Assembly: GCF_037078405.1 (NCBI RefSeq)
Contig: NZ_JAYMGZ010000001.1
Location: forward strand, 806,001-870,000
Reading direction: 5' to 3'
Length of the DNA stretch: 64,000 bases
Source: Haloarcula sp. DT43
GTDB lineage: Archaea; Halobacteriota; Halobacteria; Halobacteriales; Haloarculaceae
The position numbers and the translations under genes were made by a program. Below are positions 40,662 through 64,000 of this stretch, one piece after another. The notes beneath the pieces were generated by a model, which saw nothing but the letters and a program-made list of their open reading frames with translations, was not told where the DNA came from and made no database searches. How positions within the stretch are numbered: position 1 is the stretch's first letter; every line of letters starts with the position of its first letter.

Positions 40662-41237
40662 ATGAGCGACGAGGAACCAGCGGAGAACATCAGCGGTGGG
40701 GCCGCTGGCGGCGGTCAGTCGGCCACGTTCGACCCCGAGACGGCGGGCACGCGGGCCGAAGCCGTCGTGGACCGCCTCGGCGACCTGTACTGGCAGAAGA
40801 CCTACGGGGGCCGGGACGCCTTCGAGTGCCTGGTCCGGACGGTTCTCAGCCAGAACACCTCCGACAAGGCGAGCCAGCCCGCCCACGACGAACTGATGGC
40901 GCGGTACGGAGACGAGTCGGGGGACGGGGACCTCGCCCGCGCGCTGGCCGACGCCGACCAGCCCGAACTCGCCGAGACCATCTCCTCGGCAGGGCTCTAC
41001 AACCAGAAGTCCGAGCGCATCGTCGCCCTCGCCCAGCGTATCTGCGAGGAGTACGGCGGCGAGGCGGGCTTCGACGAGTTCGTCAGGGAGGGCGACCCCG
41101 AGGCGGTGCGGTCGACGCTGCTGGACATGAACGGCGTCGGCCCGAAGACCGCCGACTGCGTCCTGCTGTTCGCCGGCGGCCGCGGTGGCGTCTTCCCAGT
41201 CTACACCGTAGGGGCTGCTAACATTACGATAACATAA
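40662..41237 (+). pseudogene. nth: endonuclease III, truncated by the mobile element
   Basis: A DNA glycosylase/AP lyase for oxidised pyrimidines, cut short. Residues 1-182 are normal Nth: the helix-hairpin-helix motif with catalytic Lys (LDMNGVGPKTADC) is intact. The frame then reads GVFPVYTVGAANITIT and stops. Family members continue PVDTHV with the catalytic Asp, followed by about 80 residues including the four-Cys iron-sulfur cluster. Homology ends with acc at 41,205-41,207, and the Asp codon reads tac (Tyr). The product would be inactive. The 3' part of the gene should lie beyond the right edge of the window, on the far side of the inserted element. Confidence 0.9.
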
Positions 41238-41268
41238 TTTATATGGGGTTGACTCGTGCGTCTTGTCG

Positions 41269-41823
41269 ATGACCGACGACGAGACCGAGAAGAAACAGAT
41301 AGCGGTTCGGCTGACGCCTGAGAAGAAGGCGAAGTGGAATCAGTATCAAGAGGACTTGGGATTGGGAAGTCGGGAGACGATGATTCGGAAGGCGGTCGAA
41401 CATTATCACTCTGTCAAAGTTGGCGACGGAGGAGATGAGCAATTGACGCAACTATCGAGGCAGATGGACGACGTGTTGGATGCAATTGAGCGTGTGAAGC
41501 TCGACGTTGCCGATGTCCGGCGTGGCCAGATTACTCGTGACGATATTCCCGATATTGCCGAGGAAGTCTCGTTCGTCATGGCGTCTAACTTTACACTCTC
41601 TGTTGACGAACTCATAGAGAGGCACGTAGACCCGGATATAGACCTTGATGACGAGATGGAGCAAGTAGCTGTGGAGCAGTATCTAACTGGCTTCGCAAAG
41701 GCTGTATCTGCTATTTCTGACGAAAGCGAACGGGAGCGGATGATGGGGATTCTGGAGGCGCAAACCGAGGAGATGTGGGATGTCGATATATCCTCACTTT
41801 TAGACTCAGCAGACGACTCATAA
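41269..41823 (+). CDS. ribbon-helix-helix regulator next to the attachment site
   Basis: A 184-aa protein with an N-terminal CopG/Arc-like ribbon-helix-helix (KKQIAVRLTPEKKAKWNQY, residues about 7-25, then a helix with GSRETMIRKAVEHY). The rest is acidic and helical, perhaps for oligomerisation or partner binding. It is the first gene inside the left end of the element and is preceded by an A+T-rich TATA-like stretch (41,231-41,245), 25-30 bases before the ATG. It may control integration or copy number of the element. Confidence 0.7.
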   Translation: MTDDETEKKQIAVRLTPEKKAKWNQYQEDLGLGSRETMIRKAVEHYHSVKVGDGGDEQLTQLSRQMDDVLDAIERVKLDVADVRRGQITRDDIPDIAEEVSFVMASNFTLSVDELIERHVDPDIDLDDEMEQVAVEQYLTGFAKAVSAISDESERERMMGILEAQTEEMWDVDISSLLDSADDS

Positions 41824-44565: not shown

Positions 44566-45681
44566 ATGACGGACACAGAGGACTACAAAGTCACGGCAAT
44601 CAACTCGTTCCGTCTGGCGGTCGAATTGTTCAATCGACCTACCGAGCGAGGTCGTATTGTTGGGGTTCTGAAGTTCCTGAACCATTCCTTCGAGATGCTA
44701 TTAAAGGCCTCCATATTGGAGAATGGGGGCGACATCAGAGGTGAGGATGGTGAAGGGAACACAATCTCGTTTGAGAAGTGCGTCAACTACTGTCGGGATG
44801 GTGATAGGGGGAATCATGACCTAAAGGTTCTTTCTGGGTCACAAGCCGCCGCTCTCCTTGCCATCAATAATCAACGAGACTACGCTGAACACGAACAGGT
44901 ACAGATACAGGAGGAGCAGTTGTACCTCCAATCTCGACAAGCTGTGGAGATATTCGCAGAATTACTGAAGGAGGTCTTCGACGAGGACCTATCTGACCAC
45001 CTCCCTGAGCGTATCCTTCCACTCGCTACGATGATGCCGGTCGATATGGTAAACCTCATTCAAGCCGAGATTTCGGAAATTCGTCACCTACTGAATGATG
45101 GAGAAGTTGATGAAGCAAGAAGGCGAGTGAAGTCACTTGATTCGCTCGAACGGGGATTAGATGATGAAGGAGGAACACCTTCGAAGGCACAGCTAAACGA
45201 AATTCTAGACTCGCTGGAAGAGGGGGAAAACCTTGAAGCGGTCTTCCCGAATGTATTCGCCTCCCTAACAGGCGATGTGAAGGCCGGAGAAGGGAGACGT
45301 ATCCAGTTAGGGAACGACGATGGTATCCCCGCTAGTTACGTGCCATACGAGGAGATTGACGAGGATTCAGATGTTCACTTGTTTACTGAAAAAAACCTCC
45401 ACGACAGGTTCCCCTTGGACCCCCATCCAGTCCGTGATGCTGTGCGGGAGGAACTGGGAACGGACATTTCATGGCAGAAAACGAAAGCTGTCATCAAAGA
45501 GCTAGGACTACTTGACGATAGGGAATACTATCGGGAGGGCATTTCACTGGGCGAAGGTGGCTCACGAGATGGCTACCACAAGGACGTGATACCGAAGGTG
45601 TGCGAGGCGGTTGAATCGGGAGCAGTAGACCCTGAAGAGGCGTGGGACGAACACAAATCCGAACTCTGGGGGTATGATTGA
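44566..45681 (+). CDS. DUF3644-like (HEPN-type) protein, putative defence RNase
   Basis: A 371-aa protein. The first 130 residues match the pattern of DUF3644 proteins: AINSFRLAVELFNRPTERGR, FLNHSFEMLLKASILE, then NNQRDYAEHE. That region is thought to be a HEPN-like helical domain, often found in defence or toxin loci where it acts on RNA; NQRDYAEH could provide polar catalytic residues. The C-terminal 120 residues look like a separate domain with HTH-like helices (GTDISWQKTKAVIKELGLL). The call is from pattern memory and not from a search. Confidence 0.5.
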   Translation: MTDTEDYKVTAINSFRLAVELFNRPTERGRIVGVLKFLNHSFEMLLKASILENGGDIRGEDGEGNTISFEKCVNYCRDGDRGNHDLKVLSGSQAAALLAINNQRDYAEHEQVQIQEEQLYLQSRQAVEIFAELLKEVFDEDLSDHLPERILPLATMMPVDMVNLIQAEISEIRHLLNDGEVDEARRRVKSLDSLERGLDDEGGTPSKAQLNEILDSLEEGENLEAVFPNVFASLTGDVKAGEGRRIQLGNDDGIPASYVPYEEIDEDSDVHLFTEKNLHDRFPLDPHPVRDAVREELGTDISWQKTKAVIKELGLLDDREYYREGISLGEGGSRDGYHKDVIPKVCEAVESGAVDPEEAWDEHKSELWGYD

Positions 45682-51270: not shown

Positions 51271-52248
51271 ATGAGTTTAAAGTCTCAAGTGTTCCTTGCG
51301 AACACCCCTGAATATGGAGTATCGCCTGTCGTAGGAGTCATTCTGATGGTTGCCGTGACAGTCGTTATAAGTGCCATCATCGGTGCATTCGTCTTCGACT
51401 TAGGAGACAGCGTTAGCGATTCGTCGGCGTCTTCTAACCTCGGTGTTCGAATCAGCGAGAATGCCGGAGATGTTGAAGTCCTCGTAACCACGGGGACAAC
51501 TGACCGGCTCGACCTCCTCGTCGATTCGACTGTTGAAGACTCGAAGAACGACGTATCGCCGGGAGACACGCTTATGGCCTCGGGCGTTGCCACCGATGCA
51601 AAGCTGACTGTGCGTGCGCTGAACGACGGAAAGCAGACAGTTGTCGCCAGCGAGACTGTTCAGGACGGTACTAGCAGTAGTATTTCGTCGAATACTCTCG
51701 TCGTCGCCAAAGACGGCTCGGAAGATTACACGTCCATCGACCATGCTGTCAGTAATTCATCCGATGATGATGCCATCATTCTGACAGGGGACACATATTC
51801 TCCTGACGACGTTCTTATCGAGAACAACGTAACAATTCGTGCCGAAGACGGTGCTAACGTCGTCCTCGATGGGTCCTCGTTCGGGAGTGGGTCTCAGGCG
51901 TTCGAAATCGGCCCGTACTCGAACGTGGTCATCGACGACCTCACGATTCAGTACTACGACACGGCCATCAAAGCCGATTATACTGAAGGTACGTGGACGG
52001 TCAAGAACGCTACGTTGACCGACAACGGCTACGGTGTTCAAGCACCGTACACGTCTGGTGCATGGGCAGTCAAGAACTCGACCATTATGAACAACGCCAA
52101 TTACGGAATTGACGCATATATGGCGAGTACGCAAGGTGATGCGACCGAGAACTGGTGGGGTGACACCAACCCAGACGACCAAGTGAACGGAAACGTCTCC
52201 ACTTCGCCGTACTGTGACGACTCGTCGTGCAGTTCGACCAGCCCGTAA
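51271..52248 (+). CDS. pilin N-terminus fused to a parallel beta-helix domain
   Basis: A 325-aa surface protein. Residues about 16-45 (YGVSPVVGVILMVAVTVV and on) are the hydrophobic N-terminal domain of archaeal type IV pilins. Residues about 145-305 form a right-handed parallel beta-helix, with repeated strands such as NNVTIRAEDGANVVLDG and a late ENWWGD motif typical of NosD-like and pectate-lyase-like beta-helices. The Lys/Arg usually before the prepilin cleavage site is absent. The protein may polymerise or be anchored with the beta-helix displayed outside, as an adhesin, glycan-binding or viral spike-like structure. Confidence 0.75.
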   Translation: MSLKSQVFLANTPEYGVSPVVGVILMVAVTVVISAIIGAFVFDLGDSVSDSSASSNLGVRISENAGDVEVLVTTGTTDRLDLLVDSTVEDSKNDVSPGDTLMASGVATDAKLTVRALNDGKQTVVASETVQDGTSSSISSNTLVVAKDGSEDYTSIDHAVSNSSDDDAIILTGDTYSPDDVLIENNVTIRAEDGANVVLDGSSFGSGSQAFEIGPYSNVVIDDLTIQYYDTAIKADYTEGTWTVKNATLTDNGYGVQAPYTSGAWAVKNSTIMNNANYGIDAYMASTQGDATENWWGDTNPDDQVNGNVSTSPYCDDSSCSSTSP

Positions 52249-52405
52249 TCGGAAACTCCGGTAAAGCGATAATCCCTGTTCCACGAACCTTATCAAGATT
52301 ATCGGAACGTCTTGGTAGGATATGTTGATAAGGTCGCCTCAGTCAGTCGATTTCCTCTGTCTTGTTGCGTAAACGTATCGAATTCCCTTAAGTATCATCG
52401 GAGAT

Positions 52406-52426
52406 ACACTAATGCGTACATAATTC
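52406..52426 (+). promoter_or_regulatory. shared 21-bp element motif, copy 3
   Basis: ACACTAATGCGTACATAATTC, 16 bases before the ATG at 52,443. Its presence supports translation starting at 52,443, even though that frame is broken further on. Confidence 0.6.
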
Positions 52427-52442
52427 CCATCAATAATTATAT

Positions 52443-53800
52443 ATGAGTGACGAACTCCGACCTCGCCCAGAACAGGGAAGGATGACGGAGAACAGAACAA
52501 CCGAGGCCGTCGTCTCGGTCTCATCATAGGAGCAATCGTACTGCTGTTGCTCGTGGCGATGGTTGGAGGAGGAGGAATTCCGTTTGGAGATTCGTCCTCA
52601 GATGTGGTCGTCGAGGAGCAAACGACTCCTGACGAGCCGTGCGGGATGGACCCGTGTGGTGAGGATGATGAACAGGAGTACAACGTCTCGACTCCCACAG
52701 AGAACAACTCCACCAACGATAGCGTCTCAGGCTCGGAGAACTCTGATATATCTGAGCCGGATGAAGAGCCTGCTGTATCTAAGCCGACCGCAGAGCCGTC
52801 CATCAGTTTCAGCGACGGACGAGTCATCAACGTTGACCAAGATACGGCATACGACGATATTCAGCCTGCTGTGAACGATGCGAATCCCGGTGACACACTC
52901 CGAGCGGATACTGGGACGTACGAAGGTCAGCACGAATACGAAGGATACGGAGCAGTCGCCATCATCAACAAGAGCATCACTCTCATCGCAGAGGACGGCG
53001 CTGTTCTCAAAGGGACGGGGACACAGTACTGGGCGAATAATCCGACCTCTGCTGGCTTCGTTGTCACCGCAGACGACGTGACCATCCGAGGATTCGATGG
53101 GACGAACCACAATACGGGCATCGCCCTCTATGACTCGGACAATACCGTCATCGAGGCAACCTCGTTCGACAACGGTAATATCTGGGCCACGGGCTCGGAT
53201 GGGGCTTCTTTCATCGGCAACGATGTGACGAGGTTGAGTTTCTGTCGCTCGTCCGATGTTACTGTGCGAGGTAATACCGTCGAGAATCAGTTGGCCGTCA
53301 ACAACGGTGCAGACGGGGCTTACGTCGTACAGAATGACATCGGATGGCTGTTCGTCGGCAACGGGGCGAACGTCGAAGTCGATGAGAACTCGATAACCCG
53401 AGTGCAGGTTCAGAAAGCCACCCTTGACGCCCACGATAACACCATCACAGGGAGCAACGAGTACGGCGTCGAGATTATGCACTCGACCGCTACGCTCACG
53501 AATAACGTCATTACAGGGAACAACGGGGGCGTCATGGTGACGATGCTGAACGACAACTTCCCGACCTCGGACGTGACCCTCCGCTACAACCAACTCTATG
53601 ACAACAACGTCCAGTCGAGCGTCAACCTCGGGGACGTGGCATTAGACGATGGGCGAACGACAATCGACGCCCGGCAGAACTACTGGGGGCAATCCGGCGG
53701 GCCGAACAACTACCAGCTTAAGCGGGCGACGCACTCGTACCCAGAGAAAATCGACGTGTCGGACCACTGTACCAAACAGGGGTGTTCCGATAAGAAGTAA
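52443..53800 (+). pseudogene. membrane-anchored parallel beta-helix protein with a frame break near its start
   Basis: From the ATG at 52,443 the frame reads MSDELRPRPEQG and then runs to a stop at 52,529. In a shifted frame the sequence continues KDDGEQNNRGRRLGLIIGAI into a TM helix and a roughly 410-residue protein ending at 53,800. Adding one A in the AA at about 52,478 restores a single frame of some 450 residues: a short cytoplasmic tail, one TM helix, an acidic Ser/Glu/Pro linker, and a beta-helix (about 130-420) ending with a YWGQSGGPNN motif. No ATG or GTG precedes the TM helix in the second frame. Either a sequencing slip, a true mutation, or recoding. Confidence 0.7.
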
Positions 53801-55275: not shown

Positions 55276-56184
55276 ATGCCGATTCGCCAACACCGTCCGC
55301 CCACGGACGAGTTCGTTGAAGAATTTCAGGATACTATTGTGCCGTCTGCGATTCCTTCGGATGAGTTCATCAATTGGGACGGAATCGAATCTGACATCGA
55401 GAATTACGAGGCTCAGATTGAAGCTATCCTTGACTTAGAGGATGTTTCTGAGTCTGAGTTCGTTGAGGGCCTCACTGATGCCCTGATGGATGCTGATGAT
55501 ACTCGGAAATGGATTGATTTCTATTTCGAGCTATTGGGGGAGCGGGGAAACAAATACTCCGCATACGAAGGGGTCTGGAAGTTCTACGATGTCCAGCGGG
55601 CGATTGATAGGGGAGACCGGGAGTCGGCTCGGAGTCTGGCCGACATCCTGCAGGAAATTGGCCTACAGTACGTTGTGGACGAGGCTGATGTCAGGGACCA
55701 CTATCGTGGGATGCTCGTAGGGATGGAGTCACACGCTCGGAAGAATAGGCAGGGCTTCTGCTTCGAGAATTTGGTCGAGGAACGGGTTGAGCATATTGCG
55801 AACCAACTTCGAGAGAATGGTCACTCGGTCGAAACGGATGATGAGTACACGACAGAGTATAACGACGAATCGGGCCAGAAGAAGACCGTAGATTTTGCTA
55901 TGTTCGAGGATGGCGAGCTTAGCCTTGTCGTTGAGGCCAACGCCTACAAGGTCGGTGGGTCGAAGCCCTCGGAGATTCGCCGGTCGTACAACCATGTCGC
56001 TCAACGGATGCGAAACGACGACATCGCCTTTGTCTGGATTACGGATGGGCAGGGTTGGGAAAAATCACTCGCAAACGTGTTGCGGCAGAGTTACGATGAT
56101 ATTGTAGACCTTTACAATCTGGAGCAGGCAGAAACTCACCTGCCCCGTGATGTGGTGAATTTCTTCGAAACCGGCGAAGTCTAA
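55276..56184 (+). CDS. type II restriction endonuclease, DpnII/MboI-like
   Basis: A 302-aa nuclease. The run GMESHARKNRQGFCFENLVEE (residues about 149-168) matches the conserved SNARKNRGG-type motif of the DpnII/MboI family, which cuts at GATC. A PD-(D/E)xK-like core follows: VDFAMF (Asp-206), then LSLVVEANAYK (Glu-220, Lys-225) and FVWITDGQGW. It converges with the modification genes on the other strand, abutting paralogue A. An amino-methyltransferase of the Dam type lies 0.7 kb away, completing the system. The recognition sequence is inferred from family and from the absence of GATC in the element. Confidence 0.8.
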   Translation: MPIRQHRPPTDEFVEEFQDTIVPSAIPSDEFINWDGIESDIENYEAQIEAILDLEDVSESEFVEGLTDALMDADDTRKWIDFYFELLGERGNKYSAYEGVWKFYDVQRAIDRGDRESARSLADILQEIGLQYVVDEADVRDHYRGMLVGMESHARKNRQGFCFENLVEERVEHIANQLRENGHSVETDDEYTTEYNDESGQKKTVDFAMFEDGELSLVVEANAYKVGGSKPSEIRRSYNHVAQRMRNDDIAFVWITDGQGWEKSLANVLRQSYDDIVDLYNLEQAETHLPRDVVNFFETGEV

Positions 56185-56893: not shown

Positions 56894-57817
56894 TTACTCG
56901 AAGTTCCCGAGAGATACTTGTCCCCGTGACCCTCGCTCGCTTTCGGGGATGTTAGTGGCGATGATTTCGTCTACCTCATCTCGATTGTCGGCGTCACTAT
57001 TGATTGCACGAGTGGCCCCTTCCACCTCAACGTGGAAGCCTGCTTCATCGTACATCTCGTACATCACACCGCTATTGCTGAGGATTACGTAGACGCCTCG
57101 TTCATTCAGTTCTTGTGCGGTTTCCAGCAGTCGTTTCTGGTCCTCTTTCCCGAATCCCTCTGCAGAGTAGTCGTTGAAGTATGCCGTTGGACTCATCGGT
57201 TCGTAGGGCGGGTCGAAATACACGAGGTCGCCAGCTTCGGCCTCATCGAGGATGTAATCGAAGTCGTCGTTGAATATCGTGGTTTCCTCCAGCACTTGGC
57301 TCGCCTTTCGAATCTCGCTTTCTCGAACCCAATCTGGGTTGCTGTACCGCCCGATGGGGACGTTGAATCCACCGCTACTGTTCTCACGATATAGCCCGTT
57401 GTAGCACGTGCGGTTCAGGTACAGTAACAGAGCGGCCTCCTCCAATTTGTCGAATTCTTCATCATGTGGGCGGCGATTGAAAAGTTCTCGTTGCTGGTAG
57501 TAGTACTCATCAATATCCCGCCCCTTCCGGTTGCTTTCCGAGAATTCCCTTTCGGGGTCTGGGTCGTCTTCGGGGTGCTGAAACTCCCGGCACTTTTTGA
57601 TGAGTTCTTCGGGTCGGTCCCGCACCTGCTCGTAGAAATTCACCAGCCGAGAGTTCGTATCGTTAATAGTGCCGTTCTCTGGTTCGATGTCGAAGAAGAG
57701 TGCTCCTCCGCCAAAGAATGGCTCATGGAAGTGTTGATAGGACTCGGGGAACCGTTGATACAACTCATCTAACAACTGTCTCTTCCCGCCAGCCCACTTC
57801 AGAATCGGTGAGACCAT
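56894..57817 (-). CDS. DNA adenine methyltransferase, Dam/DpnM (D12) class
   Basis: A 307-aa N6-adenine methyltransferase. Motif X/I KWAGGKRQLL (residues 7-16) and FFGGGALFF (34-42) bind S-adenosylmethionine and DPPYEP (202-207) is the catalytic motif; the target-recognition region lies between. Family members methylate GATC. It protects DNA from the DpnII-like nuclease. It is divergent from a small HTH gene, and a 22-bp perfect palindrome sits in between. Confidence 0.9.
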   Translation of the reverse strand: MVSPILKWAGGKRQLLDELYQRFPESYQHFHEPFFGGGALFFDIEPENGTINDTNSRLVNFYEQVRDRPEELIKKCREFQHPEDDPDPEREFSESNRKGRDIDEYYYQQRELFNRRPHDEEFDKLEEAALLLYLNRTCYNGLYRENSSGGFNVPIGRYSNPDWVRESEIRKASQVLEETTIFNDDFDYILDEAEAGDLVYFDPPYEPMSPTAYFNDYSAEGFGKEDQKRLLETAQELNERGVYVILSNSGVMYEMYDEAGFHVEVEGATRAINSDADNRDEVDEIIATNIPESERGSRGQVSLGNFE

Positions 57818-62464: not shown

Positions 62465-62794
62465 ATGAGCCTCAAAACCACCGTTCAGAAAGGGTCGGAC
62501 GGACGGTTTCAGACCACCGTCCCAAAACGTCTCGGCACGAAGTACGACCTCGGCGGACAGCCAGTCGCATACCGAGTCGAATCCCGGGACAGAGTGAGCG
62601 TCCTCCTCGACCCGAGCGACGACGATAAGACAACCACCATCCACAAGACCTCGAACGACCAGTTCAAGCTCAACCTCCCCACGGGGCTGGCCGATGCGAT
62701 GCGCCTCAACGGAGCGACAATCAACTGGGACGAGACCGACTCGCTCACTCGAATCACCTTCAAAACCGTCCAGCGGCGTGATAACGATGAGTGA
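62465..62794 (+). CDS. AbrB-like protein with two swapped-hairpin repeats
   Basis: A 109-aa protein with two similar halves (TTVQKGSDGRFQTTVPKRL and TTIHKTSNDQFKLNLPTGL), each matching the AbrB/SpoVT/MazE swapped-hairpin fold that binds DNA as a dimer. Its stop overlaps the recombinase start by eight bases, so the two are coupled, and it probably regulates the recombinase operon. No toxin gene follows, which argues against an antitoxin role. Confidence 0.75.
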   Translation: MSLKTTVQKGSDGRFQTTVPKRLGTKYDLGGQPVAYRVESRDRVSVLLDPSDDDKTTTIHKTSNDQFKLNLPTGLADAMRLNGATINWDETDSLTRITFKTVQRRDNDE

Positions 62795-63512
62795 ACCAGA
62801 AGCCCGAACCGAGGCTCTGCGAGCGTACGGATACACCCGACTGTCCCAAGAGTCTCGTACCAGTATCGACGACCAGAAGGAGAGCATCACGGACTATGCC
62901 GCCGACAGAGAGGGACTGAACCTCGTCGAAGTCCTCGACGACGGCCAGCACCAGACGGGCTACGAGACCGAATCACGGGCCGAGTACCGTCGCCTCACCG
63001 ACCTCATACAGTCGGGTGACGTGGACGCTGTGGTCATTCGAGGGGTTGAGCGGCTCGGGCGAGATTTCGATGAACGGCAGATGTTCATCATCTGGTGTCG
63101 GCAGAATGGCGTCGAACTCCACGACACCGAGCGAGGTCGAATTCCCATCGAGGACGAATACACGGCAGGCGTCGAGGGAATCCACGCCGCCTCCGACCAC
63201 AAAGGCAAGGAGAAGGAAATCGAGCGAGCCCGCAAAGCGGTACAGAAGCGAGTGGACGACCCTGATTGCTTTCACGGCGAGCCGCCGAAGGGCCTCACCT
63301 ACGACGAGGCGAAGCGAGGTCTCGTCGTGGACGATGAACAGCGAGAGGCGTTCGAGGAGGCGATGGAGGTCATCCGGTTTCGGGAAGACGGGCGTACGTA
63401 CACGGAGATAGAGACTAAGACCGGCGTCAACCGTGCTCGCATCTCTCGCATCTTGAATAAGCAGGCGGACTGGTTCAAGCGAGCGAATCGGCTGAAGAAC
63501 GGTGATACGTGA
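62787..63512 (+). CDS. serine recombinase (resolvase/invertase family)
   Basis: A 241-aa recombinase. The N-terminal catalytic domain has YTRLS with the nucleophile Ser-20, then SIDDQ, and the Arg-bearing ERLGRDFDE. Residues about 195-225 carry the C-terminal HTH (TYTEIETKTGVNRARISRIL). It could integrate and excise the element or resolve dimers; small serine recombinases of this size more often act as resolvases or transposases. It is coupled to the AbrB-like gene before and the HNH gene after. Confidence 0.88.
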   Translation: MSEPEARTEALRAYGYTRLSQESRTSIDDQKESITDYAADREGLNLVEVLDDGQHQTGYETESRAEYRRLTDLIQSGDVDAVVIRGVERLGRDFDERQMFIIWCRQNGVELHDTERGRIPIEDEYTAGVEGIHAASDHKGKEKEIERARKAVQKRVDDPDCFHGEPPKGLTYDEAKRGLVVDDEQREAFEEAMEVIRFREDGRTYTEIETKTGVNRARISRILNKQADWFKRANRLKNGDT

Positions 63513-64000
63513 TGAGTCAGAATCGCAATCCGAAGGTTGTGGAGGAAGCCAAAGAGCGGGACGATTTCACTTGTCAGAAGTGCGGTCTCCAAGACCCATC
63601 AACCGTAGAGGGACACCACATCGAGCCGCTGTCGGTCGGCGGAATCGATGCCGTTGAGAACGTCTCCACCCTCTGTGACTACTGTCACGACTTCGCACCG
63701 ATGAACATCCAACCGACCGACTTTGAAGCTGTGTTCCAGATATACGTCTCGACGGGGCTAACTCCTGACCACGACCTGCTCCTCTTCGGGAGTATGCTCC
63801 ACTCGGATATGGATTCCCATCAACAGGTGGCAGAGTCGCTCCACTACCTCTACGATAACTCGTTGACGATGCCGAATGCGTCGTTGGATATGCGGTGGAT
63901 TCAGGCTTCAAGAAAGGTGGACTACAGAGGGATTCGAGAGTACTTCCCCAAGGGGAGTAAGTGCGGGGTTCACGGTATGGACACCGAACTATCACGCCAA
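63512..64000 (+). CDS. HNH endonuclease domain protein (cut off by the window edge)
   Basis: At least 163 residues, without a stop in the window. The HNH fold is visible: CQKCG (residues 21-25), GHHIEPLSVGG (34-44), then LCDYCHDF as the second zinc pair and the catalytic His pair. The start ATG overlaps the recombinase stop by one base. HNH proteins often sit beside recombinases and packaging genes in mobile elements. The C-terminal part (SDMDSHQQVAESLHYLYDN) is unrecognised. Confidence 0.8.
   Translation, partial: MSQNRNPKVVEEAKERDDFTCQKCGLQDPSTVEGHHIEPLSVGGIDAVENVSTLCDYCHDFAPMNIQPTDFEAVFQIYVSTGLTPDHDLLLFGSMLHSDMDSHQQVAESLHYLYDNSLTMPNASLDMRWIQASRKVDYRGIREYFPKGSKCGVHGMDTELSRQ

Follow-up and report, generated by a model that had tools for sequence, protein, structure and literature searches.

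An integrative element splits a haloarchaeal endonuclease III-family gene at conserved codons also used by related elements

Results

A split nth-family gene

Our study examined a stretch of 64,000 nt (the window), which corresponds to contig 1:806001-870000 of a 3.75-Mb host genome. Reading frame P0001 (40662-41237) encodes a HhH-GPD/Nth protein that runs to ...GGRGGVFPV and then ends with YTVGAANITIT and a stop codon; the nth genes of relatives read on as ...GVFPVDTHVHR. The host part of this gene, including the core described below, occupies 40662-41194 on the forward strand, as delimited by homology, alignment to the relative G030 and the rejoined reading frame. The G+C content is 69% before the break point and 52% beyond it. 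When the genome was searched at the protein level, the missing 3' part was located at contig 1:877595-877879 (window-equivalent 71595), 30.4 kb downstream of the 5' part on the same contig and strand. An earlier reading of this DNA from its letters (the sequence-only reading) had proposed that an element cuts nth, that the DNA turns A+T-rich past the cut and that the rest of the gene would lie to the right of base 64,000. All three proposals were borne out: the G030 locus is uninterrupted and the downstream part begins ...VDTHVHR. The absence of any 3' part from the genome, which the same reading had named as evidence against itself, was not what was found.

The DNA flanking both halves aligned to one uninterrupted locus in G030, which marks the break as an insertion rather than an assembly join, and both junctions were inside a single 1.35-Mb contig. 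Joining the halves at GCGTCTT produced an unbroken 270-codon ORF that was identical to the intact G030 gene at 260/270 positions (96%), and this rejoining set the size of the insert at 30,408 bp. The rejoined gene and intact copies were similarly low in dN/dS, which suggests either that the insertion is recent or that the gene remains in use following excision.

The relatives of the target gene product in the PDB are endonuclease III enzymes, and its motifs comprise Lys162 in GPK, Asp181 in VDTHVHR and four cysteines; by motif, Lys162, Asp181 and Cys231/238/245/251 match the known catalytic and Fe-S residues. The best curated model for the intact G030 orthologue was endonuclease III, at 117 bits compared to a TIGR01083 cut-off of 211.7, whereas a separate intact gene on contig 4 of the host scored 231.8 bits, above this cut-off. 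The host keeps an intact canonical Nth on contig 4, and the target enzyme, judging from its sequence, is a divergent paralogue of the Nth family with probable Nth-like activity. The 5' part retains Lys162 (GPKTADC) and lacks both Asp181 and the Fe-S cysteines; the catalytic Asp181 and the four cysteines of the Fe-S loop sit in the distant 3' part, in agreement with the earlier observation that the iron-sulfur domain is missing from the window gene. As the insertion parts the lysine from the aspartate and the Fe-S cluster, both halves should be inactive. The sequence-only reading expected the host to be left without this enzyme unless a second copy existed; this does not hold for the enzyme class, which is retained in the contig 4 Nth. 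Some genomes (G058, G061, G082, G084 and others) had no close match to this nth gene and only relatives of about 35-42% identity, so that the gene is dispensable in nature.

Anatomy and cargo of the inserted element

The inserted element is 30,408 bp long with 52% G+C; its left 22.8 kb lie in the window (41195-64000) and it runs on to window-equivalent 71602. It has the features of a tyrosine-integrase element, with an integrase gene near one end, a direct repeat (albeit a short one) and an uninterrupted site in relatives. Neither a circular form of the element nor an empty site was seen in the assembly of this genome. The tyrosine integrase (344 aa; PF00589, 2.3e-23) is encoded beyond the window, on the reverse strand at the right end of the element (window-equivalent 70524-71558; L016:6524-7558), and its start is 37 bp from the right core. 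Residues R167, K192, K282/R285, H315 and Y324 were invariant in the integrase alignment, the His-II position being occupied by Lys.

At the left end, 31 bp past the stop codon of the truncated gene and in the same direction, lies a gene for a 184-aa protein (41269-41823, forward strand) which had no match in Pfam or NCBIfam. Its start appears to adopt an RHH-like fold and is accompanied by a coiled coil, and from its sequence and placement it is a probable helper or regulator of the integrase. Homologues occur in the elements of G418 (35% identity), G413 (41%) and G195 (33%), and the gene is thus conserved in all four elements at this site. A small gene of this type is directly upstream of the integrase in G413, G195, G012, G010, G202 and G434; in the window element (G000) and in G418, the small gene and the integrase would adjoin across attP in the circular form.

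The cargo includes a DUF3644/PDC-S19 candidate defence protein (44566-45681, forward strand), a DpnII-type restriction endonuclease (55276-56184, forward strand; PF04556, 7.5e-43) and its partner, a Dam/D12-class adenine methyltransferase (56894-57817, reverse strand; PF02086, 2.1e-62; TIGR00571). It also includes a serine recombinase with a resolvase N-terminal domain (62694-63512, forward strand), homologues of which were found in the G418, G195 and G012 elements, and HNH nucleases, among them an HNH endonuclease gene that is cut by the window end (63509-64000, forward strand). Across 62694-64000 and L016:1-311, the intact serine resolvase is followed by the HNH gene and then by fragments resembling a second, decayed resolvase copy. 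Two secreted beta-helix proteins are encoded at 51271-53800, and the first of them carries an archaeal type IV pilin signal. L016:5079-5490 (window-equivalent 69079-69490) contains several imperfect palindromes of the form CACTTACAnnnnnTGTAAGTG; this region is upstream of a 242-aa coiled-coil ORF and possibly represents the replication origin or an operator region of the element. No Nth-like gene was found on the window element.

The exchange point

The only usable identical run common to both junctions was GCGTCTT, which is present as the attL core at 41188-41194 (forward strand; codons 176-178), the probable region of strand exchange, and as a right copy at L016:7596-7602 (window-equivalent 71596-71602). 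The left junction reads GGCGTCTTCCCAGTCTACACC and the right junction CAGCGTCTTTCCGGTGGACACG. The sequence-only reading had placed the cut exactly at the codon of the catalytic Asp, which is here TAC (Tyr; 41202-41204), and this placement had to be revised. Codon 181 encodes Asp in every relative, so the T in TAC can have come only from the element, and exchange at the Asp codon itself is ruled out. The TAC codon belongs to attP, which partly mimics the target (CCCAGTCTACAC vs TCCGGTGGACAC), and the apparent run-on of the gene to Val180, followed by Tyr-Thr, is attP sequence that resembles the target. We infer that the strands are exchanged within the codons for Val177 and Phe178, about 8 nt upstream of the one for the catalytic Asp. 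This point was derived from several elements jointly, because the repeat is only 7 bp here and G413 has no fully identical core.

The attP-derived tail fused to the truncated gene (41195-41237, forward strand) encodes ...PVYTVGAANITIT and a stop. Within it, TGCTAACAT (41216-41224, forward strand) matches TGTTAACAT to the left of the right core and is tentatively a possible arm-type repeat; repeats flanking the core as arm-type sites were clear in G418 and G195 and near chance level in the window element. When 24-bp windows of nth were ranked by DNA conservation across 41 haloarchaeal copies, the codons at this position (the Asp site) came within the top 5%. This is a simple explanation for why the site was chosen, much as for tRNA genes.

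Recurrence at the same codons

A search of 392 genomes of the order recovered only three integrase matches at E <= 1e-40 besides the query, with identities of 62% (G418), 55-58% (G413) and 42-47% (G195), each in another family. In all three of these genomes nth was split at the same codons as in the window (left/right junctions: G418, GGCGTCTTCCC/GCCGTCTTTCC; G195, GGCGTCTTTCC/AAGTCTTTCC; G413, GGCGTTTTCCC/TTGTCTTTCC). This confirmed the earlier suggestion of a defined attachment site, and elements at these codons were indeed found in other genomes, as that reading had proposed to look for. A TCTT(T/C)CC region was common to the insertions in G418, G195, G413 and G301, and in the last of these the insert, at CTTTCC, measures 1.8 kb and has no integrase. 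In G413 the two parts of nth fall on different contigs, the 5' part being decayed; in G045, from another genus of the family, nth is kept only from the Asp codon on, with A+T-rich DNA before it. Other haloarchaeal families harbour related elements and viruses that break nth at these very codons, which indicates an aimed rather than an accidental insertion.

No match was found when the integrase was used as a single query against a collection of genome contigs, and an integrase alignment returned no match from that collection beyond Natrarchaeobius chitinivorans AArcht7 (G413). A viral contig collection searched with the integrase likewise gave no match, the best phage and plasmid matches listed had an integrase identity of only about 21-29%, and no DNA similar to the window element was found in plasmid records.

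The G418 element (C1:69009-92600; L074, L083) encodes a pleolipovirus-type NTPase (31-32% identity to His2 and HHPV3/4) and a phrog_2231 protein that appears to be spike-like; no pleolipovirus spike or NTPase gene was found in the window element by tblastn of the G418 NTPase and family searches of the main window ORFs. Pleolipovirus-like proviruses lie in nth both in G418, at the Asp site, and in G434:C3 (L103, L104), at the second site described below, and an integration of a pleolipovirus in nth is not mentioned in the literature cited here. Very large methylase-type proteins, named by eye, are encoded by the G195 and G012 elements.

A second insertion point in the same gene

In G012, G010, G202 and G434, nth was split at codons 112-116 (LYNQK), with direct repeats of CTCTACAACCAGAAG in G012, TACAACCAGAAG in G010, TACAACCAGAA in G202 and CTCTACAACCAGAAAT in G434. 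Rejoining restored perfect ORFs in G012 (272 aa) and G010 (268 aa), and the G434 element carries an NTPase of the same pleolipovirus type as G418. The integrases of G010 and G202 are 99.7% identical while their hosts belong to different families and the host gene parts differ, which indicates recent transfer. A tree of 16 integrases placed the users of the Asp site in one clade (100/100) and those of the LYNQK site in another (94/95), the two clades being about 25-32% identical. Eight other integrases from the genus fell outside both clades, and seven of these eight came from genomes with an intact nth.

The elements of G010 (L059:18296-18976; 226 aa) and G202 (L090:741-1472) carry their own Nth-like gene, which ends about 30 bp before the right junction in the same direction as nth; its product is about 40% identical to the broken Nth over the core and has NF053634 as its best model. 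Nth-like genes about 37-38% identical to the broken gene are also present on Haloarcula and Halobaculum plasmids. Our guess is that the element-borne gene replaces the lost function.

Screening of 445 genomes, 30 of which were followed up, revealed insertions at either point in at least nine genomes, or at least ten with the G045 remnant, a count which is a lower bound; the insertions span genomes of four haloarchaeal families. Two-part nth matches in G002, G015, G018, G125, G137 and others were rejected as linker expansions near codons 84-100 within one open frame, those in G060, G123 and G134 as in-frame 40-50-codon insertions near codon 215 that are not interruptions, and those in G264 and G226 were set aside as contig-edge splits. 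In L062, L064 and L065 (G134, G060 and G123, respectively), the codon-215 insertion partly repeats VPAEKCGFG and a second, partial or decayed 3' copy is nearby, which represents a separate kind of event.

Discussion

Our data make it very probable that a 30.4-kb integrative element was inserted by conservative site-specific recombination into the gene of a haloarchaeal Nth-family glycosylase. In the mechanism that we propose, the tyrosine integrase of the element would recombine attP with an attB made of conserved Val-Phe-Pro-Val-Asp-Thr-His codons, probably aided by the RHH-like protein, and the strands would be exchanged in GTCTTTCC, about 8 nt upstream of the codon for the catalytic Asp. 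The outcome is a gene split into a 5' part with Lys162 and a stop supplied by attP and a 3' part with Asp181 and the Fe-S loop, and neither part is expected to function; on excision the exact gene would be regained, and the loss would be reversible in principle. As the elements carry different cargo, with pleolipovirus-type genes in G418 and G434, the cassette of integrase, RHH-like gene and attP seems to be common to viruses and non-viral elements.

The short core repeat and the single assembly of this genome could point to an artefactual join in the assembly, or to an insertion or deletion that is random and illegitimate, yet both junctions lie within one contig and related integrases cut the same codons in other families, which refutes such an event and leaves it with a negligible probability. 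It is likely that nth is simply a safe and stable dock, in which codons conserved in DNA across families and a redundant enzyme offer a target that is present everywhere at little cost, and its disruption has no regulatory role. This is consistent with the highly conserved DNA of the Asp-site codons, with the canonical Nth elsewhere in the host and with genomes that have no close match to this gene and retain only a relative of 38-44% identity; the same stability has been put forward to explain the choice of tRNA genes (PMC8371274). However, this one gene has been reached by two integrase clades, and in two elements an Nth-like gene lies by the junction, which hints that the loss matters.

The same two findings would suit a regulated switch, whereby the element excises under some growth or stress condition, the glycosylase is restored and the element later re-inserts. 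This would add a function to the main explanation, and we consider it unlikely, although the halves are precise, rejoinable and without decay, and SpyCI in mutL provides a precedent (PMC3430984). The canonical Nth of the host means that any phenotype may be small, the decayed remnants in G413 and G045 represent permanent loss, and low dN/dS is equally expected after a recent insertion. A broader proposal appears similarly doubtful, namely an element-controlled repair locus, in which two distant integrase clades, borne by viruses and by elements with defence genes, evolved to target core codons of the glycosylase, so that insertion turns the enzyme off and excision turns it on again, with some elements supplying a replacement enzyme beside the junction. 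Taken together, the reading of nth as a stable dock is more likely than that of a regulated switch. Elements that break the gene may also bring a substitute, and the control of repair and mutation rate by archaeal mobile elements becomes directly testable. Furthermore, our study yields a set of integrases with a defined attB in a protein gene.

Comparison with known systems

Among the closest known systems are the SpyCI phage-like chromosomal islands in streptococcal mutL, which occupy the 5' end of this mismatch-repair gene in many strains and for which growth-phase excision and a mutator phenotype have been shown (PMC3430984, PMC4689407). In both cases an element that encodes its integrase occupies a fixed position in a gene for DNA repair, which it interrupts and which excision restores (here in principle). 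Unlike SpyCI, the window element lies inside the catalytic core of an archaeal base-excision glycosylase, and its host has a second Nth.

Within haloarchaea, the window element resembles the SNJ2 type of pleolipovirus integrases (PMC8371274; PMC7547991), in which tyrosine integrases of viruses and other elements are adjoined by small helper genes. The SNJ2 helper genes encode one coiled-coil and one MarR-like protein (PMC8371274), which the 184-aa gene resembles by position and size. However, SNJ2 uses a tRNA-Met gene whereas the window element uses nth, and the SNJ2 family has been described with substituted Glu/Asp-I and His/Trp-III positions (PMC7547991), whereas the four Asp-site integrases retain GCRP(S/H)E and LGH/MGH and have Lys at His-II (KxLRH). 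There was no SNJ2-like protein among the best phage matches listed.

The elements also share with those of thaumarchaea (PMC6563490) an archaeal host and short att sites in conserved protein genes. The thaumarchaeal elements occupy the 3'-distal end of the gene, whereas in nth the cut falls two-thirds of the way along (about two-fifths for the second site), which presumably leaves the gene non-functional. The targets known in archaea are for the most part tRNA genes, intergenic regions and 3'-distal gene ends (PMC8371274, PMC6563490), and text searches of the open-access literature, subscription papers being outside this scope, yielded no account of an archaeal element that integrates into endonuclease III. 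Against this background of tRNA genes and expendable 3' ends, two separate integrase clades break one repair gene at two fixed codon positions. Site-specific integration that disrupts a gene and is reversible in principle was already known; what is new is the target gene.
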